Of a DNA stretch of 64,000 nt, positions 12,383-39,742 are shown one piece after another. The notes under the pieces are model-generated. The model did no database searches. It was not told where the DNA came from and worked only from the letters and a program-made list of their open reading frames with translations. The first letter of the stretch is position 1. Every line of letters starts with the position of its first letter. This DNA is from Labilithrix sp. (lineage in GTDB: Bacteria; Myxococcota_A; Polyangia; Polyangiales; Polyangiaceae), in the NCBI GenBank assembly GCA_019637225.1, contig JAHBWC010000006.1, positions 62,001 through 126,000 on the forward strand. The letters are read 5' to 3'. The translations under genes and the position numbers were made by a program.

Positions 12383-12633
12383 GTTTCAACGGAGCCGCCG
12401 ATCGAGTTCGACGGGGGCGCGGTGGCGCCACTCGACGAGCAGACGGGCACGCCTTCAACGGAGCCGCCGATCGAGATCGGCGGAAGGCCGGCGACCTGCA
12501 GGCGGAGCTCGACCTCGAGACGGTGCTTCAACGGAGCCGCCGATCGAGATCGGCGGAAGGAGGGCTCGACGAACGGCACATGGGTCCAGGTCGACCTGCT
12601 TCAACGGAGCCGCCGATTGTGGTCGATGGATAG
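12383..12633 (-). CRISPR. fossil CRISPR block A (4 repeats, 3 spacers)
   Basis: Repeats at 12383-12418, 12452-12487, 12525-12560 and 12598-12633. All carry GGAG where the main array has GTAG. The two central repeats end in GGCGGAAGG rather than GGCGGAGAG. The first is mutated in its 3' half, and the last keeps its first 20 bases and then degenerates. Spacers are 33-37 bp. These are the most diverged repeats, hence the oldest, and are separated from the rest of the array by the nucleotidyltransferase cassette. Confidence 0.93.
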
Positions 12634-12809
12634 GTGAGTCTGTCGAGGACAGCGCCACAGCGTCAGGACCGCGGTCGGTCCTCGGACTGCCACCCGGCAC
12701 GAATGAAGCAACTCAGTGGACTTGCCGCAGTCGTCCGCGGCGCTAGCGTCGCTCTCGAGGGCGTTCGCTTGCATGGCCGGGGGCCCCGCCGTAGGCTTGC
12801 CAAAGGACG

Positions 12810-13004
12810 ATGGATCGCAACCTCGACCTTCCTCAGCGGCTTGATCCCCGTGTTCGCGCGGAGGAGAAGAGCGCGTCTCGTGAAGACGATGCTCGAGCGC
12901 TCGCGATGCAGCTCAAGAGCGCGGAGGATCTTCGCGCCGAGAATGGGAAGTTCGCGTTCCCTCGTGCCTCGATCGATTGGTCGAGCGCGCGCCGCCACTG
13001 GTGA
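12810..13004 (+). CDS. small protein coupled to nucleotidyltransferase (possible antitoxin partner)
   Basis: 64 residues from ATG 12810 with an AAAGGA ribosome-binding site just upstream. The protein is highly charged and probably helical (REDDARALAMQLKSAEDLRAENG), ending in a Trp/Arg-rich tail. Its TGA stop overlaps the GTG start of the next gene as GTGA, the arrangement expected for a translationally coupled pair. Small gene plus AbiEii-like nucleotidyltransferase is a common toxin-antitoxin layout. The antitoxin role is inference. The pair sits between two fossil CRISPR blocks. Confidence 0.6.
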   Translation: MDRNLDLPQRLDPRVRAEEKSASREDDARALAMQLKSAEDLRAENGKFAFPRASIDWSSARRHW

Positions 13005-13798
13005 GTGCGGGTCCGCAGCTCTCATACCGGGACACTGCTGAGATCCTCGTCCGCCTTGGCGCTGTAGCTGAGGACATCGTCCTCATCGGCGGGCAGGCGC
13101 TTCACTTTTGGGTCAGCCAGTATGCGGCGCGCGATTCGTTCCTGTCGTCGGGAGCGCCCTTTACGAGCAAGGACGTCGACTTTTGCGGCGACGCCGAGGA
13201 GGCGCGAGCCGCAGCCGAAGCGCTCGGTGGAGAGGTTTGCGTTCCATCGCTGGACGATGCGACTCCCTCGACTGCGCTCGTGCGCTTCGAACACTCGGGC
13301 GCCAAGCACGAGATCGACTTCCTCGACAAGCCGCACGGTATTACTCGACTGGACGTCGAGCGGATGAGTCTCCTCGTCCACACGGGCATCGGCGAAGGGC
13401 GCTTCCGCGTGCTGCCTCCGATCCTTTGCATGGAGAGCCGGATCTGTAACGCCAGCCTTCCCGGCTACACGACCCCGCAGGCGCTTCGACAACTGCGCGC
13501 TTCAATCGTCTGCGCGCGCGAGTTCCTATGCGACCTCCTCGAGCACCAGGGGCTGCGTCCCTTCCTCAAGGCTGCGGAGCGCGTGTTTCGATTCACTCGC
13601 CTTCGCCTGCAAGCAAGGAACGTCTACGACGACCATGGGATAGATGCGCTGGACGCGATCCCGAGAGGACGTCCCGAGCCTGGCCTCGTGATGTTCAACG
13701 CTCAACGCCTTTCGCAGATGGAGACCATCCTCGCTCGGGAAAGGGCTCGGCGGCGTGCGATGGCTCAGGCACGAAGCCCGAGGTCGCCCGACCAGTAG
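13001..13798 (+). CDS. nucleotidyltransferase-fold protein, AbiEii-like
   Basis: 265 residues if started at GTG 13001, preferred because it overlaps the upstream stop (GTGA). TTG 12977 would add eight residues. The N-terminal half has the nucleotidyltransferase signature: IVLIGGQALHFW (about 26-37), then SKDVDFCGD with the DVD metal ligands at about 58-60, and a later EIDF acidic strand. This is as in AbiEii/MNT-type transferases of abortive-infection and toxin-antitoxin systems. The C-terminal half is helical. The last codons lie in what looks like a degenerate CRISPR repeat (about 13787-13809), so the 3' junction falls inside a repeat. Likely a defence or TA cassette; substrate unknown. Confidence 0.72.
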   Translation: MSAGPQLSYRDTAEILVRLGAVAEDIVLIGGQALHFWVSQYAARDSFLSSGAPFTSKDVDFCGDAEEARAAAEALGGEVCVPSLDDATPSTALVRFEHSGAKHEIDFLDKPHGITRLDVERMSLLVHTGIGEGRFRVLPPILCMESRICNASLPGYTTPQALRQLRASIVCAREFLCDLLEHQGLRPFLKAAERVFRFTRLRLQARNVYDDHGIDALDAIPRGRPEPGLVMFNAQRLSQMETILARERARRRAMAQARSPRSPDQ

Positions 13799-14247
13799 GT
13801 GGCGGAGAGGGGAGCGATGCCCGCATCTCGGGCCGTTTGGCCCCGGCTTCATGGGAGCCGCCCGATCGAGACCGGCGGAGAGGCCCGCGCCCCTGAGGGT
13901 GCCGTGGGCCATGGAGCCGCTTCAACGGAGCCGCCGATCGTGATCGGCGGAGAGTGATCAAGATCACGCCCTCTGTCTCCGGCAACCTCGTGCTTCAACG
14001 GAGCCGCCGACCGCGATCGGCGGAGAGAGCACCCGGCGCGGCGAGCGAACGTGCGAAGCGTGGTGCTTCAACGGAGCCGCCGATCATGATCGGCGGAGAG
14101 TACACCGGCGAGTGCGCGTGCCTCGTCGGCACGATCGCGCTTCAACGGAGCCGCCGATCGTGATCGGCGGAGAGGCGCCGCGCGGCATCATCATCGCCGG
14201 TGAGGAGGGTGGCTTCAACGGCTCCGCCGATCGTGATCGGCGGAGAG
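13787..14247 (-). CRISPR. fossil CRISPR block B (6 clear repeats plus one half repeat)
   Basis: Clear repeats at 13846-13882 (37 bp, mutated), 13919-13954, 13992-14027, 14065-14100, 14139-14174 and 14212-14247, with spacers of 36-38 bp. Most carry GGAG and a GATCGTGATC-type stem core. The repeat at 13992 already has the young core (GACCGCGATC). A degenerate repeat end GGCGGAGAG at 13801-13809 lies exactly 36 bp (one spacer) before the first clear repeat and overlaps the end of the nucleotidyltransferase gene. The block is intermediate in sequence between block A and the main array. Confidence 0.92.
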
Positions 14248-14267
14248 AGCCCTTCACGGTGTCGTGC

Positions 14268-14622
14268 GTCAGTAAGACTGACCCCCTCGCGTCACTAAAG
14301 CTGACCCCTTCCTGGAGTTCGAAAGGAAGGTAAAGTCGATGGAAGTAGAGAAGAAAATGGCTCCTCTCGGTGCGGAGGTAGCGATGATCGAGGCGGAGCT
14401 CGCACGTGCCGAGACCGAGGGCACGCTCGACGCGAAGCTCACCTTCTTCGCCAAGCCGAAGCTCCTCGTCATCGACGAGGTCGGCTATCTGCCCTTCGAG
14501 AAGCGCGCCGCACACCTCTTGTTTCAGCTCGTCGCCCGGCGCTACGAGCGCGGGAGCTCGCTGATCACGACGAACCAGGTCGTGACGCAGTGGGGGGCCG
14601 TCTTCGGTGACGACGTGTCGAT
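14268..14622 (+). mobile_element. IS21-type insertion sequence remnant inside the array
   Basis: A 20-base spacer stub follows the last repeat of block B. Then two related 18-base motifs, each ending CTGACCCC, occur at 14268-14285 and 14291-14308, resembling the repeated terminal sites of IS21-family elements. An istB fragment follows and is cut off about five bases before repeat 1 of the main array. istA, the start of istB and the other IS end are missing. An insertion followed by a deletion that also removed neighbouring repeats explains the structure. Confidence 0.75.
14390..14617 (+). pseudogene. istB: truncated istB (IS21 transposition ATPase)
   Basis: About 75 residues match the middle of IstB. 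They include the segment ARAETEGTLDAKLTF, the Walker B region KLLVIDEVGYLPF and the later SSLITTNQ and WGAVFGDDV blocks. The N-terminal half with the Walker A loop is absent, and the reading frame ends in the first CRISPR repeat. It cannot make a working helper ATPase. The preceding 50 codons of open frame are not IstB-like. Confidence 0.8.
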
Positions 14623-17600
14623 GCTTCAACGTAGCCGCCGACCGCGATCGGCGGAGAGCCTTCGCGATGCCCGTTGCCTGCCTCAGTTGGTTGTTGCTTC
14701 AACGTAGTCGCCGACCGCGATCGGCGGAGAGGAGGAGGTGCGGTGGGTCACGCCCCATCACGGTCAGGCGCTTCAACGTAGCCGCCGACCGCGATCGGCG
14801 GAGAGACCGACCGCCAGATCCGGTTCTTGACCCTCTGGCACGCTTCAACGTAGCCGCCGACCGCGATCGGCGGAGAGTCCTTGAAGTCGATGCAGAGCAC
14901 CGCCATCTCGTCGCTTCAACGTAGCCGCCGACCGCGATCGGCGGAGAGTTCATGGGCCTCCGGCCCGTCATCCACTTCCGCGATGCTTCAACGTAGCCGC
15001 CGACCGCGATCGGCGGAGAGCGGATCTCGCCGAGGTGCCGCGTCCGCGCGGCGAACAAGCTTCAACGTAGCCGCCGACCGCGATCGGCGGAGAGGCTGCT
15101 CGCGAGGGCCTCGTGATCCCCGCTGTGGCCAGCTTCAACGTAGCCGCCGACCGCGATCGGCGGAGAGCGGAGATGCTCGTCGGCGGCGGTCGCCGCGACT
15201 TGGTGCTTCAACGTAGCCGCCGACCGCGATCGGCGGAGAGCTCGCGTTCTGGCGCAGCCACGAGGACGGGTCACCGTCGCTTCAACGTAGCCGCCGACCG
15301 CGATCGGCGGAGAGAGATCGCGATCGCGATGCCGCTCGCGCACGCGAGCCCGCTTCAACGTAGCCGCCGACCGCGATCGGCGGAGAGCTGCGGAGCGAGG
15401 CGGTTGCCCACCGCCTTCGTCCGGCTTCAACGTAGCCGCCGACCGCGATCGGCGGAGAGTCACGTGGCGCTTCGTCCTCGGCATCGACTACGGCTTGCTT
15501 CAACGTAGCCGCCGACCGCGATCGGCGGAGAGCCGCCTTCGCCGCCGAAGTACTTCGCGGCCTGCTTCGCGCTTCAACGTAGCCGCCGACCGCGATCGGC
15601 GGAGAGCGCTCGAGGGTGTCGTGTCCTGGATGTACCAGGACGTGCTTCAACGTAGCCGCCGACCGCGATCGGCGGAGAGCCTGATCTGGGGCGGCCGCGT
15701 CCTCGTCATCAGCACGCAGCTTCAACGTAGCCGCCGACCGCGATCGGCGGAGAGATCTCCGCCGGCGCACTGTGGAACGACTTCCTTGGTGCGCTTCAAC
15801 GTAGCCGCCGACCGCGATCGGCGGAGAGGAGCCGCCGAGGTCGACGTGCCACATCGGCTCGACGCCGCTTCAACGTAGCCGCCGACCGCGATCGGCGGAG
15901 AGCCGGACAACGCGCCGCCGCTCGCGGGCCTGCGCACGTGGCTTCAACGTAGCCGCCGACCGCGATCGGCGGAGAGGACGACCGACCCCGGCGAGGACGA
16001 TGCCCCGACTCAGTGCTTCAACGTAGCCGCCGACCGCGATCGGCGGAGAGACGCGATCACCGAGGAGGCGCTCGGCGACGCCGGCTAGCTTCAACGTAGC
16101 CGCCGACCGCGATCGGCGGAGAGACAACTCGGACGCGCCGACGGCCGAGTCGATCGCCTGGCTTCAACGTAGCCGCCGACCGCGATCGGCGGAGAGCGAC
16201 TACGTCGAGGCGAGGCGGCCCGGCTACCTCTTGCTTCAACGTAGCCGCCGACCGCGATCGGCGGAGAGGCGCCCGCCGCTCACCTATCTCGCGTACACGG
16301 GCAGGCTTCAACGTAGCCGCCGACCGCGATCGGCGGAGAGCGCATGTCGATGCGCCCCGCGGCCTCGGCCGGCGCGTCGCTTCAACGTAGCCGCCGACCG
16401 CGATCGGCGGAGAGCGCCGGGGAGCGCGCGCGTCGCGCCATCGAGAGGAGCGGCTTCAACGTAGCCGCCGACCGCGATCGGCGGAGAGGAGGTGACCGGT
16501 GATCGCCCTCCTCGCAGCCGTCGCGCTTCAACGTAGCCGCCGACCGCGATCGGCGGAGAGGCCGCCTCGTCCACCCCCGTCGTCGCCGCCCCCAAGGCGC
16601 TTCAACGTAGCCGCCGACCGCGATCGGCGGAGAGCACCGGCGCCGAACACATCCCGGACTGGGACGCGCTGCTTCAACGTAGCCGCCGACCGCGATCGGC
16701 GGAGAGCCTCCTCCGCCGTCCCGTGCGCGTCGGCGACGTCCTGCTTCAACGTAGCCGCCGACCGCGATCGGCGGAGAGGCAGCCCGACGATCGACCACAA
16801 GGGCATCGTGACGTTGCTTCAACGTAGCCGCCGACCGCGATCGGCGGAGAGTGGCCGCCAGCCGCGCCGATGATGAGCAGCGACCCGCCGCTTCAACGTA
16901 GCCGCCGACTGCGATCGGCGGAGAGAGCAACGGCGTCCACTGGTGGCACTCCGTGCGAGCGACGCTTCAACGTAGCTGCCGACCGCGATCGGCGGAGAGC
17001 GGTGACGCCGTGCGCGTGGCGACAGAGCGCGAGGTCGCTTCAACGTAGACGCCGACCGCGATCGGCGGAGAGGTGCCTGGCGCCCGTCAATCGCTCGTGC
17101 ACGACGGCATGCTTCAACGTAGCCGCCGACCGCGATCGGCGGAGAGGTCGCCCTCGGGCCCGATCGTGTCGTCGGGCGCGTTGCTTCAACGTAGCCGCCG
17201 ACCGCGATCGGCGGAGAGGCACCGTCGCGTCCGGCGTGGCGACGCTGCTCGACTGGCTTCAACGTAGGCGCCGACCGCGATCGGCGGAGAGTCGCAGAAA
17301 GAGCACACGGCGATGATGATGACGATGATGCTTCAACGTAGCCGCCGACCGCGATCGGCGGAGAGACCTCGAGGAGCGGGCGTCGTCGGCGCTCGCGCTC
17401 CTCGCTTCAACGTAGCCGCCGACCGCGATCGGCGGAGAGATCCGGTGCTCAAGGACTACGCCGACCTCACGTCGCTGCTTCAACGTAGCCGCCGACCGCG
17501 ATCGGCGGAGAGGAGGCGCTGCTCGAGGTCTTCGGACCCGAGAAGGTGCTGCTTCAACGTAGCCGCCGACCGCGATCGGCGGAGAGATCCCGTTCACGCC

Positions 17601-20600
17601 CGTTGCGTCGCCGGCGAACCGGCTTCAACGTAGCCGCCGACCGCGATCGGCGGAGAGATGCGTGGCTTCCTCACGGCGGACGCGGCGGCACGCGTGCTTC
17701 AACGTAGCCGCCGACCGCGATCGGCGGAGAGAGGGCCCTCGTTGAGGGCTGGCCACCGGCTGGCCCCGCTTCAACGTAGCCGCCGACCGCGATCGGCGGA
17801 GAGACCTCACGATTCCCCCGGCGGACGGATGAACTACGCTGCTTCAACGTCGCCGCCGACCGCGATCGGCGGAGAGCAGCTTCCGCGAACGCGCCTCGAT
17901 CATTGCCGCGAGCTTGCTTCAACGTAGCCGCCGACCGCGATCGGCGGAGAGCGCCGTGACGAACGCGCGACCACTTGTTCCACTTCGTCACGCTTCAACG
18001 TAGCCGCCGACCGCGATCGGCGGAGAGTCGCGCTCGCCTCGTTCGTTCCGGCCGAGGTCGAGGCGCTTCAACGTAGCCGCCGACCGCGATCGGCGGAGAG
18101 TTGGCGAGACCTTCGGCCTCCAGTTTCTTTATCTTGGGCTTCAACGTAGCCGCCGACCGCGATCGGCGGAGAGCTGGCTTCGCCGTGGGGGATGACTGGA
18201 AGCCTTACGCGCTTCAACGTAGCCGCCGACCGCGATCGGCGGAGAGTCGTCGGCTTCGATGTCCTTGCGCCCGCAGTAGAGGCTTCAACGTAGCCGCCGA
18301 CCGCGATCGGCGGAGAGTGGCGGAGCGCGGCGGACACCTCGCCCGTCTCGTGGCTTCAACGTAGCCGCCGACCGCGATCGGCGGAGAGATCGAGGCCGTC
18401 AGCAGCCTCGCGGTCGACATCCTCGCTTCAACGTAGCCGCCGACCGCGATCGGCGGAGAGACCGCAGCCGTGTCGGCGCCTGGACGGGACCGCAGGCTTC
18501 AACGTAGCCGCCGACCGCGATCGGCGGAGAGGCGGAGTGCTCTTTTTGAGCGTCTCTCGCTCCTTCTCGCTTCAACGTAGCCGCCGACCGCGATCGGCGG
18601 AGAGTCATGAGCGTGAGCCACCATGAGGCGCGAGCCTGCCGGCTTCAACGTAGCCGCCGACCGCGATCGGCGGAGAGAACGCGTGGTTTGCGACGGAGGT
18701 GCAGTGATGGCGACGCTTCAACGTAGCCGCCGACCGCGATCGGCGGAGAGACGAGCTGAGCCGTGCTTGTCGTCGACGATCGCGGCGCTTCAACGTAGCC
18801 GCCGACCGCGATCGGCGGAGAGGGTGTGTTCGAGGACGGCGACAACACGAGGGGCGTAGCGCTTCAACGTAGCCGCCGACCGCGATCGGCGGAGAGACGA
18901 CGCGTCCCGTCTATCTCGCGCTCGCCGGCAGCGAGCTTCAACGTAGCCGCCGACCGCGATCGGCGGAGAGAACATGGCAGCGAAGAAGAAGACGCGGCGT
19001 CCGCCGCGCTTCAACGTAGCCGCCGACCGCGATCGGCGGAGAGCATTGTGTTGCTTTCCGGTGATTGCCAATGCCTGCACTTCAACGTAGCCGCCGACCG
19101 CGATCGGCGGAGAGTTCCGGTGCTCACATACAGCGTGCCATCCTCCGCATAACTTCAACGTAGCCGCCGACCGCGATCGGCGGAGAGGAAGAAGGCCGAG
19201 GAGCTCGTGCTGCGCGTGGTGCGCACTTCAACGTAGCCGCCGACCGCGATCGGCGGAGAGAGGGCCCCTGGACCACGTACGCGTCGTAGTTGATGCCACT
19301 TCAACGTAGCCGCCGACCGCGATCGGCGGAGAGCGAGCAGGTCCTCGATTTCCGCCATCCGCTCCGGCTCCGACTTCAACGTAGCCGCCGACCGCGATCG
19401 GCGGAGAGGAACCGCGGGCCGCGTGTTCACCACTACGACCGCGTCACTTCAACGTAGCCGCCGACCGCGATCGGCGGAGAGGGGCCACATGCCCGATGCG
19501 AGAGGTGTCGGCCCGGACCACTTCAACGTAGCCGCCGACCGCGATCGGCGGAGAGGTCGGCGCCGGCCAGCTCGATCTCGTCGACCCGGAACACTTCAAC
19601 GTAGCCGCCGACCGCGATCGGCGGAGAGCGGCTCCCTTGTCGAAGTGGCGCGAGCCGGCGCAGCGACTTCAACGTAGCCGCCGACCGCGATCGGCGGAGA
19701 GGGCACGCATGGCCGTCGATGCCATGGGCGACTCTCAACTTCAACGTAGCCGCCGACCGCGATCGGCGGAGAGCGACCGCGGCGCGGCGGAGGGCGACGC
19801 ATCGGACTCTCCACTTCAACGTAGCCGCCGACCGCGATCGGCGGAGAGCGCTCTCGATCGCGCGCCGTGGCTCCTGAACGTCGCACTTCAACGTAGCCGC
19901 CGACCGCGATCGGCGGAGAGGCGCACGCGCCGCTGGCGCGAGCAGATGTCCCTGCTCCAACTTCAACGTAGCCGCCGACCGCGATCGGCGGAGAGGGCGA
20001 GTGAAAGTCATTGGTGATGCTGTAGCGAGTCACTTCAACGTAGCCGCCGACCGCGATCGGCGGAGAGAGCGGCACTCGGAAGCGGTCGTTGCCGCGCAGA
20101 GCGCACTTCAACGTAGCCGCCGACCGCGATCGGCGGAGAGCCGCGCCACGTGAGAAAAGGACTTGCCATGCGTGGGACTTCAACGTAGCCGCGCGACCGC
20201 GATCGGCGGAGAGATCTCCTCCCGCGTCGCGCGCGCGCCGCCAGGGCGCACACTTCAACGTAGCCGCCGACCGCGATCGGCGGAGAGGTTCGGCCGAGGT
20301 TCCTGGGGCACCCGTGGAGGATTGACTTCAACGTAGCCGCCGACCGCGATCGGCGGAGAGATGGTTGCTTGGTGCGAGGGCATTCCGGACAAGATTACTT
20401 CAACGTAGCCGCCGACCGCGATCGGCGGAGAGGCCGCCGCGGCTGCCGCCCTCGGCATCCAGCAGCAGACTTCAACGTAGCCGCCGACCGCGATCGGCGG
20501 AGAGGAGGTCTCGAGAGCAGCTCGGTGGTCGCCTCATGACACTTCAACGTAGCCGCCGACCGCGATCGGCGGAGAGAAGACGCTCGGCGCGATCGTCGCC

Positions 20601-23600
20601 GACCAGCAGCAGCAACTTCAACGTAGCCGCCGACCGCGATCGGCGGAGAGCGCCCTATCGGCTCCCGCCGGGGATCGACGACGAGGCACTTCAACGTAGC
20701 CGCCGACCGCGATCGGCGGAGAGCCCGGCGCGCTCCTCAGCCAGAATCCGACCCACCATACTTCAACGTAGCCGCCGACCGCGATCGGCGGAGAGATCGA
20801 GGAGCACAACACCCGCACGGGTCGCCGCGCCGCACTTCAACGTAGCCGCCGACCGCGATCGGCGGAGAGCCGGAGGCGACGTACGCGGGCACGGGCGTCA
20901 TCCTCACACTTCAACGTAGCCGCCGACCGCGATCGGCGGAGAGCCGCGGGATGGCCTCGCGCCGCGCCCGCGCGTCGAAGGACTTCAACGTAGCCGCCGA
21001 CCGCGATCGGCGGAGAGATTGTCGGGGCAGGGGTCGCGGCATCTCAGAAGGCATACTTCAACGTAGCCGCCGACCGCGATCGGCGGAGAGAGGAGCGCGA
21101 CCGCGGGCTCGAAGGCCCCCCCCGTCGACTTCAACGTAGCCGCCGACCGCGATCGGCGGAGAGGCTTGGCCGTCGGGGACCTTCGTGGGCGCGCGCTTCG
21201 CACTTCAACGTAGCCGCCGACCGCGATCGGCGGAGAGCGTCGCACGACGACGTCAACGAGCTCGCGCTCGACATACTTCAACGTAGCCGCCGACCGCGAT
21301 CGGCGGAGAGGGGCATCGGGCGCACGTACGCGGCCGCGAAGCGCACACTTCAACGTAGCCGCCGACCGCGATCGGCGGAGAGTTCGCGATCGCGGCGGTC
21401 CCGAAGGTCGCCACGACGTCACTTCAACGTAGCCGCCGACCGCGATCGGCGGAGAGCGCTGCCAGAGCGACTTGAAGACCTCCTTCTGGTCGTGACTTCA
21501 ACGTAGCCGCCGACCGCGATCGGCGGAGAGCCTCGACGGTGACCCTCTTGGCGGCACGGAGCCCTCACTTCAACGTAGCCGCCGACCGCGATCGGCGGAG
21601 AGCACCTGGGCGTCGGGCAACGGCCAGCGGGCACTTCGTCACTTCAACGTAGCCGCCGACCGCGATCGGCGGAGAGGCCCGCAGCAGCCGTGGTTCGGGT
21701 CCGTCCTCGGCGTACTTCAACGTAGCCGCCGACCGCGATCGGCGGAGAGCCCGAGACCGAGGCCGCGAGAGGCCCCGAGGTCTGGACTTCAACGTAGCCG
21801 CCGACCGCGATCGGCGGAGAGGACCGGTTTGCGGAGTACGCCCACGGCGAGGACTGCACTTCAACGTAGCCGCCGACCGCGATCGGCGGAGAGCCACGTC
21901 GACCCTGTCGAGCACCTCATGCTCGTACACACTTCAACGTAGCCGCCGACCGCGATCGGCGGAGAGGCGGCCGTTCGAGCCTCGCACGAACGAGGCGGCG
22001 CCACTTCAACGTAGCCGCCGACCGCGATCGGCGGAGAGCGTTCTTCTCGAGATCCCACGCGACGCCCTGGGCGAACTTCAACGTAGCCGCCGACCGCGAT
22101 CGGCGGAGAGCGGGGGTCGGAACTGGACGGCTACCGGCCGGCGCACTTACTTCAACGTAGCCGCCGACCGCGATCGGCGGAGAGGGCGCCGGACGAGCGC
22201 ACCCGAGCAGTGACATGCAGCCACTTCAACGTAGCCGCCGACCGCGATCGGCGGAGAGTCGGCTGGGCGACAGCCCGAAACGACGAGGCCGGGTAACTTC
22301 AACGTAGCCGCCGACCGCGATCGGCGGAGAGTCCTCGGAGTGCCGGCGCAGGTGCTCTCGCTCATTCAGACTTCAACGTAGCCGCCGACCGCGATCGGCG
22401 GAGAGGCGTTGCGCTCGCACTTCGCCGAGTGGAGGTGCATGTGACTTCAACGTAGCCGCCGACCGCGATCGGCGGAGAGGCGCTGCGCCAGACGTCCGAC
22501 AGCCAGCCTTCCGACTCACTTCAACGTAGCCGCCGACCGCGATCGGCGGAGAGAGCCCTCCGCCCGCCATGCCGCCGCTCGGATCGCTCGCCACTTCAAC
22601 GTAGCCGCCGACCGCGATCGGCGGAGAGTCCACGGCTCCGGCTGGGAGTAGTCGGGGATCGGTAACTTCAACGTAGCCGCCGACCGCGATCGGCGGAGAG
22701 CAGGCCGACCTTCCCGTCCTTCTGGACGACGTCCTTACTTCAACGTAGCCGCCGACCGCGATCGGCGGAGAGGACGCCGACGTCACGTGGCGTGACGCGG
22801 TGCTCGGACTTCAACGTAGCCGCCGACCGCGATCGGCGGAGAGAGCGTCGCGCGGAAGCCGGTCCAGACGGCGAGCCCGGTACTTCAACGTAGCCGCCGA
22901 CCGCGATCGGCGGAGAGCGTCCGAGCCCGCGATGCGGTCGCCCCACTGCGCGGTACTTCAACGTAGCCGCCGACCGCGATCGGCGGAGAGGCCGCGGCGA
23001 GGATGTCGGCGTGGAACGTGTTCCACGCACTTCAACGTAGCCGCCGACCGCGATCGGCGGAGAGCCGGAACACGTCGCGCGACCGCTGCGCCGGGTGCGG
23101 ACTTCAACGTAGCCGCCGACCGCGATCGGCGGAGAGCAGCCCGCTGACGACGACCGCGCTCGGCGACGAAGTACTTCAACGTAGCCGCCGACCGCGATCG
23201 GCGGAGAGCCCGGCGCGCGTCGCGGTGTCGCCGCACGGCGCGAACACTTCAACGTAGCCGCCGACCGCGATCGGCGGAGAGGCTCCGGAGCGCTGCCGCG
23301 CCGTGGCGACCGCCTACGGACTTCAACGTAGCCGCCGACCGCGATCGGCGGAGAGGAGGTGCGCGCGGTGCTCGGCGGCGCTCGAGCACCGCTCACTTCA
23401 ACGTAGCCGCCGACCGCGATCGGCGGAGAGGCGACGAGCTCGTCGCCGGGGAGCATGCCCAGGAGGTCACTTCAACGTAGCCGCCGACCGCGATCGGCGG
23501 AGAGCCGCCCCGACCGAGTCTGCGACCACCCTCACCTCCAACTTCAACGTAGCCGCCGACCGCGATCGGCGGAGAGCGGCAAGAGCACGCATCTCGCGCT

Positions 23601-26600
23601 CGCTCGCTCGGGACTTCAACGTAGCCGCCGACCGCGATCGGCGGAGAGGTTGGCGAGCCCCGCGATCAGGTCCGACCCGACCTGCGACTTCAACGTAGCC
23701 GCCGACCGCGATCGGCGGAGAGAGTCGAAGCCGTTGCGAAGCTGCTCGAGCGGCTGAGCACTTCAACGTAGCCGCCGACCGCGATCGGCGGAGAGGAGGC
23801 AGTGCTGGCGCCACTCGGCGTCCGCCTTTGACTCACTTCAACGTAGCCGCCGACCGCGATCGGCGGAGAGACCGTGAGCGGCTCGAGAACGAACACGCTG
23901 AACGGCTCGACACTTCAACGTAGCCGCCGACCGCGATCGGCGGAGAGTACGAAGCGTCGTGGGGGCGTCCGTGAGCGCGCTCGTACTTCAACGTAGCCGC
24001 CGACCGCGATCGGCGGAGAGGAGGCAAGTGGTTCGCGCGTCTGCGGTACAGCAGCAAACTTCAACGTAGCCGCCGACCGCGATCGGCGGAGAGCCCAGTC
24101 GCGGCAGTGCTCCCACTCGGTCCGTTCCGCACTTCAACGTAGCCGCCGACCGCGATCGGCGGAGAGGTCGTTGGGGCTCGGCGTCGCCGTTGCGCAGAGC
24201 TTACTTCAACGTAGCCGCCGACCGCGATCGGCGGAGAGAGGGCGGCTTCACGCCGAACTTGTCCTGGTAGCGGTAACTTCAACGTAGCCGCCGACCGCGA
24301 TCGGCGGAGAGAGCTCGCCTTCGCCTCCGCGGCGACGGCAGCGCCGCGCACTTCAACGTAGCCGCCGACCGCGATCGGCGGAGAGCCCTCCGATGTGCCC
24401 GCCTGGGCGCGAGCTCGCGCTGGTACTTCAACGTAGCCGCCGACCGCGATCGGCGGAGAGAAGTCGAAGCCGCTCGGGCTCAACGTCGGGCACTGCACTT
24501 CAACGTAGCCGCCGACCGCGATCGGCGGAGAGTCCCCGTCCGCAGTCACCTCGATCGGGTTGATCGACTTACTTCAACGTAGCCGCCGACCGCGATCGGC
24601 GGAGAGGCGACGAACGAGCTTGCATCGAGGGGAGCTTAGGCAGACTTCAACGTAGCCGCCGACCGCGATCGGCGGAGAGATCCCGGAAAGGCAAGGCAGA
24701 GCTGAGAGACCCACGGACTTCAACGTAGCCGCCGACCGCGATCGGCGGAGAGGATGCGCACGCCGTCCTGAGCGGGAGGCAGCTGCAGACTTCAACGTAG
24801 CCGCCGACCGCGATCGGCGGAGAGGCGATCGATGCCGGTGGCGACCTCGAGACGCACGGCCACTTCAACGTAGCCGCCGACCGCGATCGGCGGAGAGGTA
24901 CGACGCGCGTGGCTCTCACGGACGACGCACCGGAACTTCAACGTAGCCGCCGACCGCGATCGGCGGAGAGCCTTTCCTTCCTCGGGCGCCGTCGCACCCG
25001 TGCTGCAACTTCAACGTAGCCGCCGACCGCGATCGGCGGAGAGGTGCCGCAACCTCACCGACGGATTCGTCCCGCGCTCACTTCAACGTAGCCGCCGACC
25101 GCGATCGGCGGAGAGTAGCGATGGGCAATGACCGTCGAGTGCGCGCCAACGTACTTCAACGTAGCCGCCGACCGCGATCGGCGGAGAGTTGTCCGAGAGG
25201 AGCACCTGGTCAGCGCGTTCGCAGGTACTTCAACGTAGCCGCCGACCGCGATCGGCGGAGAGGGGGGCGTTCGCGGCCACCTCGCAGTGGACGATCGGAC
25301 TTCAACGTAGCCGCCGACCGCGATCGGCGGAGAGGTGCCGGTGCCTCGTCTGGGACGCCGGAACGATGACACTTCAACGTAGCCGCCGACCGCGATCGGC
25401 GGAGAGCAGCGAAGGGCCAGACGTCGCTCTTCGCCGAGCCGGCACTTCAACGTAGCCGCCGACCGCGATCGGCGGAGAGCTGTTAATGCAATGGATTCAA
25501 TATCTGTCATCCAATGACTTCAACGTAGCCGCCGACCGCGATCGGCGGAGAGCCGGATTACATCGTCGGGAGGGTTGTGGGATGAAACACTTCAACGTAG
25601 CCGCCGACCGCGATCGGCGGAGAGCTCCGGGATCTGCGGCCACGTCGACGTGACGAAGGGCCTACTTCAACGTAGCCGCCGACCGCGATCGGCGGAGAGG
25701 ACGATGCCCGGTCTGCGGACCTTCCCGCGGGCGATCTACTTCAACGTAGCCGCCGACCGCGATCGGCGGAGAGGGTGCCCTCGAACGTGAGCGCGACCTC
25801 CATCTCCGTACTTCAACGTAGCCGCCGACCGCGATCGGCGGAGAGGCGCCGCGTGCGCATTGACGTGATGCTCGACGATGCCACTTCAACGTAGCCGCCG
25901 ACCGCGATCGGCGGAGAGTCGATGAGGGGCGTCGTCGGCCCCGACGCGGATGCTGACTTCAACGGAGCCGCCGACCGCGATCGGCGGAGAGGCCACGCCT
26001 CCTCGTCCGGGTTCGTGTGCAGACTGACACTTCAACGTAGCCGCCGACCGCGATCGGCGGAGAGGCAGGCGGTCCGTCGGCGGCGCGGCGTCGTGCCGGA
26101 CCTACTTCAACGTAGCCGCCGACCGCGATCGGCGGAGAGAGGGCACGTGGTCGCCGTTTGGGCCGCGCGACGCGTACACTTCAACGTAGCCGCCGACCGC
26201 GATCGGCGGAGAGGTGTCGAGCCGCTGAACGGGCGCATGCGCGCCGAGGCACTTCAACGTAGCCGCCGACCGCGATCGGCGGAGAGACGCCTCGATGGTG
26301 GGCACGGTGCGCTCGTCGAGGCTCACTTCAACGTAGCCGCCGACCGCGATCGGCGGAGAGAGCGCGAGCGCGTCGAGGAGCGGCAGCAGGCCGAGACACT
26401 TCAACGTAGCCGCCGACCGCGATCGGCGGAGAGGAGTCTGGAGACCGCTCGTGGGCCGGCAAGGCCGGGACTTCAACGTAGCCGCCGACCGCGATCGGCG
26501 GAGAGGGCCTTCTTGCCGTCGAGTTCCTGCTCCTGAGAGCGACTTCAACGTAGCCGCCGACCGCGATCGGCGGAGAGCGAGCACGGGCAGCGCCATCTCG

Positions 26601-28777
26601 TGGGCCCAGGTCGCACTTCAACGTAGCCGCCGACCGCGATCGGCGGAGAGGACGGCACTTTTGGAAGATGTAGGTCGTGTCCGGCTTACTTCAACGTAGC
26701 CGCCGACCGCGATCGGCGGAGAGGACGAGGACGGGCGCTTCACCGCTCTCGTCTCCAACGACTTCAACGTAGCCGCCGACCGCGATCGGCGGAGAGATCC
26801 GGCGCATCGTCGACCTGCACGCGCTTGCGGACAAACTTCAACGTAGCCGCCGACCGCGATCGGCGGAGAGTTGTGGAAGATCATCGTAGCCCCCGCGGCT
26901 CGACGCACTTCAACGTAGCCGCCGACCGCGATCGGCGGAGAGACGAACTCGCTCGGGACCTCACCCCACCGCTGCCACTCACTTCAACGTAGCCGCCGAC
27001 CGCGATCGGCGGAGAGGTCCGGATCGGTCCTGTTGACGCAGCCGGCGACCTCACTTCAACGTAGCCGCCGACCGCGATCGGCGGAGAGGTGGTCGGTTGT
27101 CGGGTACGGCCTTCACGGCAGGCCTCCACTTCAACGTAGCCGCCGACCGCGATCGGCGGAGAGTGCCGGAGGCCGAACGATGATCGACGTCAGACTCGCG
27201 ACTTCAACGTAGCCGCCGACCGCGATCGGCGGAGAGCTCGCGGTCGACTGGCCGCAAGCCGACCTCATCATCACACTTCAACGTAGCCGCCGACCGCGAT
27301 CGGCGGAGAGGCGCGCCTCGTGGGCCGGCTTGCCGCCGCTCACCTTCTTACTTCAACGTAGCCGCCGACCGCGATCGGCGGAGAGCGGGACGCTCATTCA
27401 CATCGGCCTCGAGGTCTGGTGACTTCAACGTAGCCGCCGACCGCGATCGGCGGAGAGGCGAGTCGTGCGGGCACGCCTTCGCCGTCGAGCATGCGACTTC
27501 AACGTAGCCGCCGACCGCGATCGGCGGAGAGGCGAGCTGAGCGTCGCTCGGCCACTCCTCCCATTCGGGACTTCAACGTAGCCGCCGACCGCGATCGGCG
27601 GAGAGGGAAGGGCGGCTCGCGGTGCTTCTGGCGCTCGCTGGGACTTCAACGTAGCCGCCGACCGCGATCGGCGGAGAGGGCGCGCGCGCAGCAGGTCTAC
27701 GCGCTCGGGCAGACACTTCAACGTAGCCGCCGACCGCGATCGGCGGAGAGTCGCGCTCGCGACGTCCCCGACGGACCTCACGAGCTTACTTCAACGTAGC
27801 CGCCGACCGCGATCGGCGGAGAGCGGCGCACGTCACGTCGAGCATGCGATCGACGACGTCACTTCAACGTAGCCGCCGACCGCGATCGGCGGAGAGGCCG
27901 TCGCGGGCCGCGGGCTCGCAGGCGCCGTCGCGCGACTTCAACGTAGCCGCCGACCGCGATCGGCGGAGAGTGGCCGGTCGCTACGACACGACGCAACCCG
28001 ACGCAGGACTTCAACGTAGCCGCCGACCGCGATCGGCGGAGAGGCTAGCGTGTCCGACCACTCGGGCATGCCCGCCGTGGGACTTCAACGTAGCCGCCGA
28101 CCGCGATCGGCGGAGAGTCTACGATGACCCGCAGATGTTCGGCGACGCGGGTGACTTCAACGTAGCCGCCGACCGCGATCGGCGGAGAGCGCGGCTCCGG
28201 CGGAGGCCCGCGCTCGTTCGTCCACGTACTTCAACGTAGCCGCCGACCGCGATCGGCGGAGAGTTACTGATGTTTGTGTAAGAAGTCGCCTCAAAAGAAA
28301 CTTCAACGTAGCCGCCGACCGCGATCGGCGGAGAGCGGGCGGCACGAGCGTCACGATCGGCGGCTCCGGCATACTTCAACGTAGCCGCCGACCGCGATCG
28401 GCGGAGAGCGCCGTAGGTGACGAGGAGCTCGCGCGTCGCCGACGAACTTCAACGTAGCCGCCGACCGCGATCGGCGGAGAGCCCTCGCGGGGAACGAGAC
28501 GAGGTGCCGGCGCGGTGTCACTTCAACGTAGCCGCCGACCGCGATCGGCGGAGAGGATCCGAAGTCGCTTCCAATCTGAGGGCGTCATGATCGCACTTCA
28601 ACGTAGCCGCCGACCGCGATCGGCGGAGAGATCGTCATTGCCACCGAGACCCGATACGCGTTCGCCTAACTTCAACGTAGCCGCCGACCGCGATCGGCGG
28701 AGAGTCTCGACGACGACGGCCAGCTTTCGCTGGAGCTCGGTACTTCAACGTAGCCGCCGACCGCGATCGGCGGAGAG
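14623..28777 (-). CRISPR. main subtype I-G CRISPR array, about 194 repeats / 193 spacers
   Basis: The 36-bp repeat on the plus strand begins GCTTCAACGTAGC or ACTTCAACGTAGC and ends GGCGGAGAG, with a 7-bp stem CCGCCGA/TCGGCGG around a 6-base loop. Spacers are 35-41 bp, mostly 36-38. The reverse complement ends in GTTGAAG plus T or C, the usual type I 5' handle form, so crRNA is read on the minus strand. The leader is at the high-coordinate end beside cas2, and degenerate repeats lie at the opposite end. Hand count: 61 repeats with edge base G (14,623-19,043), then 133 with A (19,079-28,777). Variants: 14696, 16890, 16964, 17037, 17256 and 17841 (single substitutions), 20177 (37 bp, one-base insertion) and 25956 (GGAG instead of GTAG). 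Confidence 0.98.
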
Positions 28778-29234
28778 GCACCTCGGAGGACCATGGCGAT
28801 AACAGCTGCTTAGCGAGCGGAATGCGAGCGGTGGCGCGCGAGGACGCGGCGAGGCCCTCCGCTGGGACGTGCAGTGTCGCGCCACCGCTCGCAATGCGTG
28901 AAATTTCAAAGAACAAGCGATCTGCGAGCGGTTGGTGGGAGCTTGCTCGCATTTCGGTGCTCGTCGAGCGAGGAGCCGGCGGAGCGCCGGTGAGGTGCCG
29001 CTTGATACGCGACGATCCCCGCGTGGATAGCTTGTGGATAACTTCGGCCGCATTGGGCCTTCGATACCGCTGCGGCGACTCGTGCGCTGTGACCGCGTCG
29101 TGACGGTCGCTGTCTTGAGTCGGTAGCCGATCATCCGAAGACGATGATGATGGCAGTGAGTGGTCACGTCCAGTCAGCCGCGTCCCGGCTCGCTGCAGTC
29201 CAGCGGACATCGAAGTCGGACCGTTCTCGTGCGG
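28778..29234 (-). promoter_or_regulatory. CRISPR leader between array and cas2
   Basis: 457 bp between the youngest repeat and the cas2 stop codon. No gene is evident. It contains a tandem 11-base repeat (GTGGATAGCTT / GTGGATAACTT, 29023-29044) and AT-richer patches (around 28900-28920) that stand out from the GC-rich surroundings. By position it should hold the array promoter firing leftward and the sequence recognised by the Cas1-Cas2 integration machinery. Confidence 0.75.
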
Positions 29235-29525
29235 CTACACCACGATGGCCCGCCTCTCCGGCGCCGTGTAGATTTTCCCGATCGCGCGTATGGACGTGCT
29301 TCCACGTCCTTCGACCGGTCCGACATCGACGAAGAGCACCTGATCTTCGGCGTTGTTGATCACGTGAGCGAGCTTCGAGCGAAGCTCGACGAGCTCGCGA
29401 GCGTTCATCTCGCAGCGGAACACCGAGAGCTGGATGTGGTCCCCCCACCCGCGCATGAGGCGGTAGACGCGTCGAAGGCGCTTGGGACACGAGATGTCGT
29501 AGCTGACGATGAAGGTCTGGCGCAT
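29235..29525 (-). CDS. cas2: CRISPR integration protein Cas2
   Basis: 96 residues from ATG 29525, the typical Cas2 length. It starts RQTFIVSYDISCPKRLRRV, with the conserved first-strand Asp (YDI). It continues with the ferredoxin-like fold pattern, including HIQLSVFRCEM and the strand DQVLFVDVGP. Cas2 dimers bridge two Cas1 dimers to insert spacers at the leader end. The gene is last in the cas operon, nine bases after cas4-cas1, and nearest the leader. Confidence 0.95.
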   Translation of the reverse strand: MRQTFIVSYDISCPKRLRRVYRLMRGWGDHIQLSVFRCEMNARELVELRSKLAHVINNAEDQVLFVDVGPVEGRGSTSIRAIGKIYTAPERRAIVV

Positions 29526-29534
29526 GATCGCGGC

Positions 29535-31433
29535 TCACCGGGTCCGGAACTCGGGATACGAGGGGATCTCGCCGAGCAGGAAGCGACCGAAGAGCCGCGC
29601 CTGAACCTCGATGACACGCCGGTAGCTCACGCGGTATCCGAAGACGGGATGTGTGACGAGCTGGTCCATGCGCCGCTCGTAGGCGAGCAGGAAGCGACGA
29701 CGCCCCGCGGGGCGGAGAGCAACGCCCGTCGAATGGGATACGAAGTCCGAGGGGCCGACGACGCCGTTGTTGATCGCCGAGATGACGATCGAGTCGGCCA
29801 CGATCGGACGAAACTCCTCCATCAGATCGAGCGCGAGCGCGGGGCGACCGAAGCGAGGCTGATGGTAGAAGCCGAGGAGCGGGTCGAGGCCCGCAGAGGC
29901 GGCCACGTGGGCGAGCTCCTTCGTGAGGAGCGCGTACGCGAGCGAGAGCAGCGCGTTCACGGGGTCCTTCGGCGGCCTGCGATTGCGGCCGTCGAGGTCG
30001 AATGCCTCCGCGGCGTCGCCCTTCAGCATTCCAGAGAACGCCGAGAAGTAGCTTCGCGCGGCGGTCCCCTCGATGCCGAGGAGTGAGGCGAGCGACTCGG
30101 CGCGCTCGGTCTTCTTGGCGAACTGCTCGAGCTCGAACAGCGTCACCTCCGGCGCTGCCGCGTGATTCCGGCGGAGCAGTGTCCTCGAGTTGCGAATCTT
30201 CGACGCCACGACGCCGCGGGCGAGGCGAAGGCAGGTCTCCGCGTCGGCCAGAGCGCGGTGCTGCGCCACGCGGAGCTCGACGTTCTTGGATTCGACGCCA
30301 GTGGCGCGGCCGTAGAACCACCCTCCGGTGCTGAGAAGGGACACCGAGATCCCTCGTTCGAGCGTCGCGCGCAGAGCTTGTGTCGTGATCTGCACGTTCC
30401 CGAAGATGCTCACCTGCGAGACGTTGGGGAGCCGAGCGCGCGTATCGCCCTTTTTGCCGCGGACGATCAACTCCTCTCCCGAAATCGAGATCCGTGCGCC
30501 TTGCTCCTGGACATACAGTGGGAGCTCGTCGTCGCGCGCGGGTTGGAGCCTCCGCAGTGCGACCTCTGGTTCGTCGTCGGCGTCCTCACCGGTCGCGTCG
30601 ACCGGCCAGAACGCGTCCATTGCCTCGGGATGCTCTCCGGTGTCCGTCGGTGCTTCCGGCGCCAGCCCACGCAACAAGTTGGTCTCGTCCGGGAGACAGA
30701 TGCCGACGAGCGACCAACCTTCGCACTTGCGACTGTCGACGAGCGGCGGCGGTATCTCGCCGGCTGCCGCCAACTCGCGCGCGCGCCGCGCCGCCTCGCG
30801 TGTCGTCTCGACGAGCGCGTCGTCGATCTCGATGTGCACGCGCCGCCGGGTACGGGCGAAATAGATCTCCCCGTAATCGCAGGTGTAGCCGTGCTCTCGG
30901 AGGAGGAGCACCTGCGTGCAGAGCTGCGCTCGCTCCGGGAGATACGCTCCTTCGGGGACGTCTGGGGCAGCGCCTCGCTTGTACTCGATAGGAACGACCG
31001 TGCCCGACGCCGTACCCTCCACGACGTCGATCTTGGCGGTCATCCCGAGCGCCTCCGACGACAACCAGAGCGACCGAGCTTGGTAGGGCGGAGGCTCGGG
31101 CTCGTCGTCGTCCTCGTCGTCGTCCTCGTCGTCGTCCCTTCGCGCGCTCGATTTACCGGTCGCTGCGGCGGGCTCCGGCACGGGGGGAAGCTCGCCTCCC
31201 GCGATGTCGGCGCGAGCATGTACAGCGCGGCCGTCGACCGTGAAGGCGTTGTCCGCGAACTCGCCTTGCGCCCACTCGAGGTACATCAGCCGCTCGCAGT
31301 AGAGCGCCTCGTTGATCATCCGTGCCGGCACCAGCTCCGGCGGTTCGGTCGCCAGGGGCAACCGCCGCGGGAGCGGCTTCGCGCGGAGCGATGGCGGCGG
31401 CGCGTCCTCGTCGTGCGCCGGGGCGTCAGGCAC
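29535..31433 (-). CDS. cas4-cas1: Cas4-Cas1 fusion, adaptation nuclease-integrase
   Basis: 632 residues. The N-terminal Cas4 part (about 30-250) has an iron-sulphur Cys at 46 (ALYCERLMY), a RecB-type active site (KID about 134-136, IEYKRG with E150 and K152), and C237 and C246. The position where family members normally have the middle Cys of C-x2-C-x5-C is Trp240. An acidic run (DDDEDDDEDDD, about 100-110) interrupts Cas4. The Cas1 part (about 305-632) has Glu455 (GIEGTAARSYF), His524 (GFYHQPR) and Asp536 (ALDLMEEFRP), the catalytic triad. Cas4 trims prespacers and selects the PAM; Cas1 integrates them. The fusion is characteristic of I-G. The start lies 60 bp after the cas8g stop. Confidence 0.95.
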   Translation of the reverse strand: MPDAPAHDEDAPPPSLRAKPLPRRLPLATEPPELVPARMINEALYCERLMYLEWAQGEFADNAFTVDGRAVHARADIAGGELPPVPEPAAATGKSSARRDDDEDDDEDDDEPEPPPYQARSLWLSSEALGMTAKIDVVEGTASGTVVPIEYKRGAAPDVPEGAYLPERAQLCTQVLLLREHGYTCDYGEIYFARTRRRVHIEIDDALVETTREAARRARELAAAGEIPPPLVDSRKCEGWSLVGICLPDETNLLRGLAPEAPTDTGEHPEAMDAFWPVDATGEDADDEPEVALRRLQPARDDELPLYVQEQGARISISGEELIVRGKKGDTRARLPNVSQVSIFGNVQITTQALRATLERGISVSLLSTGGWFYGRATGVESKNVELRVAQHRALADAETCLRLARGVVASKIRNSRTLLRRNHAAAPEVTLFELEQFAKKTERAESLASLLGIEGTAARSYFSAFSGMLKGDAAEAFDLDGRNRRPPKDPVNALLSLAYALLTKELAHVAASAGLDPLLGFYHQPRFGRPALALDLMEEFRPIVADSIVISAINNGVVGPSDFVSHSTGVALRPAGRRRFLLAYERRMDQLVTHPVFGYRVSYRRVIEVQARLFGRFLLGEIPSYPEFRTR

Positions 31434-31493: not shown

Positions 31494-32417
31494 TCATGGC
31501 GTTGCCCGCTTCGCGACGCTCGCAGGGGAGAAGCTCCCATAGCCGCCTTGGTCGCTTCGGCCGATCGACGATTCGAAGACAACCGATATCCCGCGCGCCC
31601 GGAGGACTCGGGGCTCGACCTCGAAGAGCTCGGCCGACGTTACGAGGGACTGGACCACGCTGCGCTCGAGGGCGCCGGACCAGATCGGCCACCGGAAGAA
31701 CCCGGTCTTCCAGCCGCCTCTGCATCCTGTGGTGACGATCTTGTCCTCGTCGGGCACCACGCGGATGAACGGGAGCCCTCGGAACGCGAGCCAGTCTGCG
31801 CCTGGTACGCCGAGCTTCTTCTCCTTCGACGGATCGCTCGCCCGGAGCGCGTAGTCGCGCGCCTGCGAGTTGTCCCACTGAAGAACGGGCAGGGGGCGCG
31901 CGTAACGCCATGTGCCGAAGAGCGCTTCTTCGAGATCCTCGCGTGTCGACCCTTCGCGAAGGGCAGTGACCATCGCGAGGAACTCCTGCTGCCCAGCGGT
32001 GAAGTGGAGGGCAGTGGGCTTCGTGTTGCCGTTGTTGTCCGTCGCGACGTCCGTGGCGAACGCGCCCGCATAAGACAAGCTGCGAGGCGACTCTAGCTGT
32101 GCGAGGTACTCGACGTACCTCTTCGGCAGAGGCTTGAGGTCGTGTGCCTCGGCGCCGCCCTCCTTCTTCTCGTAACGGAGGTTGAGCGCCGGTTCTTTGG
32201 CGAAATCCGCGAGGTCCTCGGCGAGCCGATCGAGCAGCGCTTCGCGATCAGGGCCGCCGATGAGGACCGGGCGGTACGTGCCCACGTTTTTCCAGGCGAT
32301 CTTCGGCGTCGGCCCCTCCGGCAGGGGCCGGTCCGCGAGAACGTTGAGCACCCCGAGCGCCGCCAGAAACGCGAGCGGGTTCTTTCCGTCGAGGCCGGTG
32401 AAGATGAGCTCGCTCAT
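31494..32417 (-). CDS. cas8g: short Cas8g-like protein of subtype I-G (GSU0052 family)
   Basis: 307 residues from ATG 32417, overlapping the cas3 stop as ATGA. The N-terminus (MSELIFTGLDGKNPLAFLAA) is typical of the small protein that follows cas3 in I-G/I-U operons, proposed as the Cas8-type large subunit or a Cas3 extension. Further conserved-looking blocks are SYAGAFATDV (about 115), FTAGQQEFLAMV (about 140), FGTWRYARPL (about 167) and a late WPIWSG. A role in PAM recognition or Cas3 recruitment within Cascade is family-level inference. It is far shorter than Csx17-type Cas8 proteins. Confidence 0.8.
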   Translation of the reverse strand: MSELIFTGLDGKNPLAFLAALGVLNVLADRPLPEGPTPKIAWKNVGTYRPVLIGGPDREALLDRLAEDLADFAKEPALNLRYEKKEGGAEAHDLKPLPKRYVEYLAQLESPRSLSYAGAFATDVATDNNGNTKPTALHFTAGQQEFLAMVTALREGSTREDLEEALFGTWRYARPLPVLQWDNSQARDYALRASDPSKEKKLGVPGADWLAFRGLPFIRVVPDEDKIVTTGCRGGWKTGFFRWPIWSGALERSVVQSLVTSAELFEVEPRVLRARGISVVFESSIGRSDQGGYGSFSPASVAKRATP

Positions 32418-35400: not shown

Positions 35401-35515
35401 GCAGGCGTTCCTGCCACGGGAACGGCCGGACCTTCCGGCTTCGCTCCAGATCCTCAGGCTTGGTGTGAACGGCTTCGAAGTACTCGGAGAAGTGTTCCGG
35501 TGTGAGATCAGCCAT
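32414..35515 (-). CDS. cas3: Cas3 helicase-nuclease, I-G type with C-terminal HD domain
   Basis: 1033 residues from ATG 35515, which overlaps the end of csb2 by eight bases. The frame stays open further upstream, but only this start fits the family N-terminus. The helicase comes first: Walker A LPTGSGKT (about 54-61), DEVH box (201-204) and a later motif V/VI block (STQCIEAGADFDFDA, then QRFGRLNRLG). The HD nuclease is at the C-terminus (about 830-1000): EHMKGVKSYAEDF, ARWHDAGKVDP, and later HE and SHH motifs. Helicase-HD order is the reverse of most type I Cas3 proteins and is diagnostic of I-G. It degrades DNA bound by Cascade. Confidence 0.96.
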   Translation of the reverse strand: MADLTPEHFSEYFEAVHTKPEDLERSRKVRPFPWQERLLRQVARDGRWPSMLDLPTGSGKTAAIDVALFHLALDAAAPAAERKAPRRIVLVVDRRTVVDQAHARAETIAKKLIAAESGILRTVRDRLCLLSGTDMPIHCAQLRGGMPRDDEWAARPDQPVVAVSTVDQVGSRLLFRGYGISDGMKPIHAGLLGNDTLILLDEVHLSQPFLETLEALAKRRHSASGGLPDRWQFVPMSATPREDVPRFQLDDTDLANAALAQRLDAAKPVECREVKVSGREETKRTAFAEQIAAEVTRYATPGRAVGVVVNRVATAIAVFALVKARYGDAQVHLVTGRMRPLDRDDLDRQLSPLISSGRKRDPSTPPLVVVSTQCIEAGADFDFDALVTECASFDALRQRFGRLNRLGDIEDARGTILVRSDAVSKDEPDPVYGQALSNTWLWLRRAPRDFGIHALARELPPFDGVDEQEKRERLAELASMLPPKSRAPVLLPSHLDAWVQTQPPPRTDPDVALWLHGVDQVREADVQIVWRADISADLLARACDPERGPRSRSTDDALDALVDRVEVCPPSGLEALAIPFAAARAWLARTSSASTIDVSDVEGGTDRGEDRETVEGELGALVWRGSEKSAAIRADGLRPGMTIVVPSAYGGIAYGTWSPSSREHVIDLGDRARWTQTGKPLLRLLADRWTSRGLEAPPTPPVDETADIPVDELDAWLASLIGENAPAAKSLSTWEIEVVGALIRTKRSRKLVPIAAADLATDSPMAAYYALVGNVREKRRGHDASTEGDGGSYTGVEVLLDEHMKGVKSYAEDFARRCGIPAAIVRDIELAARWHDAGKVDPRLQRLLRGGSALADVATEPLAKSRMVINDRAARRRARERSGYPAGARHELASVSLLEKEPDLLLSEASDRDLVLHLVASHHGWCRPFAPVIEDEAPVDVVLEAGGKSILVSSRHELAALDSGISARFWALVERYGWFGLAWLEAILRLADHRRSEYEQSRAFAEMAKSVNSAASKLNTKAEAATERVQETP

Positions 35516-39720: not shown

Positions 39721-39742
39721 TCACAATCGGCTCCGTTGAAGC
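39715..39742 (+). repeat. inverted solo CRISPR repeat forming the 3' end of addA
   Basis: On the plus strand CGCCGATCACAATCGG followed by CTCCGTTGAAGC is the reverse complement of an old-type (GGAG) repeat lacking three stem bases. Its orientation is opposite to the main array. The last seven codons and the TGA stop of addA (39721-39742) lie inside it. It is the rightmost recognisable CRISPR sequence. Confidence 0.85.

Follow-up and report, generated by a model that had tools for sequence, protein, structure and literature searches.

The CRISPR array of the window, a stretch of 64,000 nucleotides of Labilithrix sp. DNA which was analysed as a whole, is divided into two blocks by a single switch of the repeat base that touches the spacer. 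We enumerated every copy of the repeat, allowing up to 9 mismatches, and found 194 repeats of 36 nt at positions 14,623–28,777, oriented on the minus strand. On the plus strand the first base is G in 61 of 61 repeats at 14,623–19,043 (first-base positions 14,623 to 19,008) and A in 133 of 133 repeats at 19,079–28,777 (repeats 62–194, first-base positions 19,079 to 28,742). G- and A-edge repeats are nowhere interleaved (0 exceptions in 194), and perfect two-block arrangements make up 2 of about 10^51 possible placements of 61 G among 194 repeats. The same numbers and coordinates had been given by a first-pass annotation of this DNA and were reproduced exactly on re-enumeration. The switch very probably goes back to a C-to-T mutation in the leader-proximal repeat, which was inherited by every later unit.

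In crRNA sense the repeat reads CTCTCCGCCGATCGCGGTCGGCGGCTACGTTGAAG followed by C in the older block or T in the younger block. It consists of an 8-bp stem, then CTAC, then GTTGAAG(C/T), in agreement with the published processing of type I-G transcripts, in which cleavage 4 nt after the hairpin leaves an 8-nt handle (PMC9638904). The edge base is the last base of the expected 8-nt crRNA 5' handle, next to the spacer. It is unpaired and located outside the hairpin, and the C and T forms of the repeat fold identically with -13.7 kcal/mol. Apart from the edge base the 35-base core is identical in 186 of the 194 repeats, the remaining 8 being singletons. Singletons are more common in the G block (6/61 versus 2/133 in the A block, Fisher p = 0.013), as expected if this block is the older one; four of the six cluster at 16,890–17,256. 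One A-block repeat at about 20,177 carries a 1-base insertion, and the A-block singleton at about 25,956 (25957–25991) has the ancestral base restored at crRNA position 27.

All spacers of the array are unique. The boundary spacer between the last G-edge and the first A-edge repeat (19044–19078, minus strand) is 35 nt long, a length shared by 7 of the 193 spacers. Spacers of 35 nt are more frequent on the older side (5/60 versus 2/133, p = 0.03), a difference which we judge to be weak. Spacer length does not differ between the blocks (p = 0.77), and no difference in first base or GC between the spacers of the two blocks survives testing. The edge variant is thus independent of individual spacers with regard to spacer length and to the codon phase described below. 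All 200 repeat matches in the genome, a draft assembly of 182 contigs and 83% completeness, fall within this one array, and a second array was not found in the 83% of the genome assembled. Scanning a collection of genome contigs for the exact repeat gave no match.

Judged by its neighbouring genes, the array belongs to a type I-G CRISPR-Cas system. Transcribed from the minus strand, the order is csb1, csb2, cas3g, a Cas3-extension protein, cas4-cas1, cas2, leader and array. Csb1 (Cas7g, 37214–38677) matched TIGR02570 with 64.8 bits (cut-off 38), the Cas5-Cas6 fusion Csb2 (35508–37214) matched TIGR02165 with 281 bits (cut-off 45) and Cas3g (32414–35680) matched TIGR02621 with 785 bits (cut-off 400). 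The type I-G Cas3-extension family protein follows at 31494–32417 (NF049934, 341 bits, cut-off 65), then the Cas4-Cas1 fusion at 29535–31433 (NF049935 cas4g_cas1g, 726 bits, cut-off 560; PF01867 and PF01930) and Cas2 at 29235–29525 (PF09827 CRISPR_Cas2, E 2.2e-16), all on the minus strand. Of the features that define the type, a Cas4-Cas1 fusion with adjacent Cas2, Csb1, Csb2 and a type I-G Cas3 are found. Among the operon proteins scanned, a subset of the ORFs in the window, none matched a Csx17 model for the large subunit Csx17/Cas8g. A 1619-aa AddA/RecB-like helicase-nuclease is encoded beside the cas genes (39721–44580, minus strand) and scores far below the curated cut-offs of named families. 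By its position, the stretch of about 450 bases between cas2 and the first A-edge repeat (28778–29234, minus strand) is presumed to be the leader. Since both the leader and the genes for adaptation, cas2 and cas4-cas1, are next to the A block, A marks the young side of the array.

We also determined which of the two bases is ancestral. Among 48 array entries ending in TTGAAN, some of which are the same array twice, 44 have a C edge when read in crRNA sense; of the remaining four, two have a G edge, one is a TTGAAAC array and one is the window, the only entry in which T leads. Within the order, every other type I-G array surveyed carries C as the edge base on the leader side. Because C is found in nearly all related arrays, it is taken as ancestral and T as derived. 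The derived base is located on the leader side, as predicted by inheritance from the first repeat, and its run of 133 out of 133 repeats is contiguous up to the leader. Arrays of the same genus have different repeats and share no spacers with the window at E <= 1e-5.

Inherited repeat switches are recurrent across arrays. A Planctomycetota MAG has a type I-G array (L159, JAMLIC010000012.1) in which 43 G-edge repeats on the leader side are followed by 11 C-edge repeats on the trailer side with 0 exceptions; the switch affects the same repeat position as in the window and the boundary spacer is 40 nt long. An array of another genome (G142, L115) shows a sharp block border between 108 young and 16 old repeats, which differ by three substitutions at other positions. 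T-edge repeats were also seen in G006, among its oldest or detached repeats, and in G030 (L103), where five of them are placed between C-edge blocks, an arrangement that needs reversal, recombination or ectopic insertion. These five repeats (6866–7900 of L103, G030:C1:3101520-3121500) follow a 3.3-kb interruption of the array.

The intact array is preceded by decayed repeats and thus starts before 14,623. At least 10 degenerate repeats of older variants (12,383, 12,452, 12,525, 12,598, about 13,846, 13,919, 13,992, 14,065, 14,139 and 14,212) form a decayed trailer at 12383–14247 on the minus strand, which is interrupted by inserted DNA. In crRNA sense most of them have a C edge, and the repeat at 12,452 has a G edge. 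They carry C instead of A at crRNA position 27 and A instead of G at positions 14 and 17, or T at 14; the first bases of the repeats at 12,452–12,560 differ as a further variant. These remnants past the G block are more decayed than the G block itself. The decayed repeat at 13992–14027 has the newer G at positions 14 and 17 between neighbours of the older type, which makes the layering imperfect at this point, possibly through recombination or gene conversion between repeats. Altogether the array is made up of at least three layers of repeat variants, the most recent being that of the edge switch. The annotation's description of one boundary therefore holds for the sharp G/A switch and fails where it makes this boundary the only one, given the older layers at 12,383–14,247. 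Within the trailer a stretch of roughly 1.2 kb is inserted (12634–13845). It contains a 273-aa ORF (12977–13798), which has no Pfam or NCBIfam match and by eye resembles a nucleotidyltransferase. A further 375 bases of inserted DNA (14248–14622) separate the decayed trailer from the intact array and carry a plus-strand fragment of IS21 istB (PF01695 IstB_IS21, E 1.1e-22).

From the two blocks, the polarity, the ancestral state and the codon phase, which is unchanged across the boundary, we infer a single point mutation in the first repeat without functional effect. The last base of the leader-proximal repeat would have undergone a single C-to-T mutation, which is G to A as read on the plus strand. 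Each integration would then have duplicated the leader-proximal repeat together with its edge base, so that all 132 later repeats received T while the 61 older ones kept C. The edge base would be free to drift because of its place outside the hairpin, and probably also because the integrase sets its second cut by distance without reading this base. The mechanism, including the mutation step, is deduced from one genome. Inheritance from the leader-proximal repeat, which the annotation had already proposed, gains support from the leader at the A block, the ancestral C edge and the switch at the same position in L159. The accompanying statement that about two thirds of the spacers post-date the switch gives an order but not a length of time, since spacers may have been lost or taken up at uneven rates.

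If the edge were instead the last PAM base of each protospacer, the switch would record a change of PAM choice from TTC to TTT. Such an origin would explain why the change is confined to the edge base, and C and T are both compatible with a TTN PAM. The annotation had held a protospacer origin to be unlikely because the blocks are uniform; uniformity alone does not decide this, since uniform bases would also result from a strict PAM, and a sharp switch from a PAM that changed. Searches of phages, plasmids, the own genome, the genus and the order gave no convincing protospacer match, and we therefore turned to codon phase, numbering the spacer positions from their PAM-side end, with host DNA standing in for phage DNA and with those triplets compared that are common enough to test in local DNA. 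Spacers keep a strong codon phase from this end, with a wobble GC of 0.82–0.86. The three phases have a GC of 0.61/0.63/0.86 for G-block spacers and of 0.65/0.62/0.82 for A-block spacers, a difference which is not significant (permutation p = 0.14). Local DNA following TTC gives 0.63/0.63/0.84, the best overall match (top-ranking for the old block and surpassed by ATC alone for the young block), and DNA following TTT gives 0.69/0.64/0.73. For the A block the fit of TTT is poorer, by about 0.43 log units for each spacer or about 58 over the 133 spacers. The base preceding the spacer falls on the wobble phase, at which T accounts for 9% in A-block spacers, as opposed to 133 of 133 at the edge, which argues that the A-block edge is not the protospacer base. 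Zero exceptions in 194 repeats would also be too clean for a base that is taken from PAMs. Codon phase thus points to a TTC-like PAM, in line with the motifs TTN and GAA published for type I-G (PMC9638904, PMC10504553), and this PAM is probably unchanged across the boundary. By the same measure the T of the A-block edge is not copied from the PAM. An edge base supplied by each protospacer was rejected on these grounds, the PAM base indicated by codon phase being C/G and the A-block edge always T, and a record of PAM choice is extremely unlikely.

The main rival to an inherited mutation is recombination between arrays: two arrays with the same repeat and different edges, from one genome or with an imported leader-side segment, would have been joined by homologous recombination within a repeat. 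A crossover in the 35-base identical core would leave just such a seamless border. Three observations speak against simple inheritance, namely the repeat at 13,992 which is out of order, the T-edge block of G030 and the singleton at 25,956, and the first two, the latter placed inside C-edge blocks, show that order can be disturbed. A merger is nevertheless unlikely, as the genome holds its 200 repeat matches in one array, although at 83% completeness of the assembly, spacer length, GC and codon phase continue across the border, and a second leader is absent there. We regard as very unlikely a slip of one base during integration, in which 35 instead of 36 bases were duplicated, the edge was taken from the incoming spacer and faithful copying then spread it. 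This would explain repeated hits at the edge and predicts a short boundary spacer such as the one of 35 nt in the window, and PAM slipping by Cas4 has been considered possible for a type I-G Cas4/1 (PMC10504553). In L159, however, the boundary spacer of 40 nt is the opposite of the prediction, and C-to-T being the commonest kind of mutation, a slip is not needed. As the window comes from a draft genome and many related contigs break inside arrays, the block order might also be an ordering error of the assembly. If sequences had been wrongly joined at identical repeats, G and A units would be mixed and the clean two-block order destroyed, and with all spacers unique the chance of an artefact is practically negligible.

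Upstream of csb1 we noticed a single degenerate repeat on the minus strand (39,418–39,453, CTCTCGCCCGGGCGACGACGCTAGCTACGTTGAAGC), which is followed by a spacer-like stretch (39380–39417, GAGAGTTGGCTGCTCTTGTTCGCTG). The latter partly agrees with a same-strand site lying 220 nt upstream (39,637–39,613, GAGAGATGGCTTCTTTTTTTTGCCG), which is preceded by TTC (39613–39640). Guide and target mismatch at positions 6, 12 and 18, that is at every sixth position, and in addition at 15. Mismatches at every sixth position are usual for type I guides. G003 (L149), G142 (L147) and G053 (L148) have the same layout but other sequences, making four genomes including the window: a same-strand TTN target is located 161–220 nt upstream, and the unit lies 60–430 bases before cas3. 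Across 21 regions, guide/target pairs were detected for 4 of 757 handle-like anchors versus 2 of 12,607 scrambled anchors. The unit at 39,380–39,453 resembles the CreA and CreR guides, which occur in other type I systems (PMC9458426, PMC12737573), and is a candidate for such a guide. The CreA/CreR literature examined offered no example from type I-G, and an Rfam search of the cas region gave no match. Possible targets of repression by such a guide are cas, a small toxin or the unit itself. The end of its repeat matches the G-block repeat, with A at position 27 and a C edge, so if the unit is derived from this array it would have originated before the edge switch. Another degenerate repeat (39715–39742, plus strand), oppositely oriented and of the oldest type, is located near the end of the helicase ORF.

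We tentatively raise the possibility that in type I-G arrays inherited switches fall preferentially on the repeat-spacer edge, so that edge switches might serve as a general dating mark for these arrays; such a preference would arise because the integrase measures its second cut without reading the edge base. The edge, 1 of 36 positions, was affected in 2 of 4 single-position boundaries (p about 0.004, post hoc, with one of the four in a non-I-G array). The further T-edge repeats in G030 and G006 fit an edge preference, numbers being small.

The switch provides a sharp and neutral-looking mark in a very long array, which gives an internal order of spacer uptake without comparison of strains. 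It suggests that in a type I-G system the repeat base adjacent to the spacer was faithfully passed on from the first repeat through at least 132 duplications. The codon-phase test can be used to infer a PAM, and to compare segments of an array, when protospacers are unidentified.

Trailer-end decay as at 12,383–14,247 matches that of Streptococcus agalactiae CRISPR1, where terminal repeats are degenerate and lineage-specific (PMC4466440). Unlike this terminal decay, the G/A switch lies amid intact repeats and consists of one clean substitution. A perfect single switch at the same repeat position and with the derived base on the leader side is shared with L159, but the change is C to T here and C to G there, in arrays of 194 versus 54 repeats, and the lineages are independent. 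In type I-E systems the last repeat base is PAM-derived and arrives with each spacer. The same edge position is concerned in the window, yet here the base is uniform within blocks and contradicts the PAM base predicted from codon phase, which argues that in this system the edge base does not come from the invader, unlike in textbook type I-E. In Escherichia and Salmonella, Touchon and Rocha (2010) found runs of conserved repeat variants, suggesting that a new repeat is a duplicate of the adjacent one (PMC2886076). As in those arrays, consecutive repeats of the window share a variant that is read as inherited by duplication; unlike there, the runs comprise 133 and 61 repeats, the system is of type I-G and the variant base touches the spacer. 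Since the general principle was published in 2010, the switch is a clean new example of a known process and not a new kind of thing.
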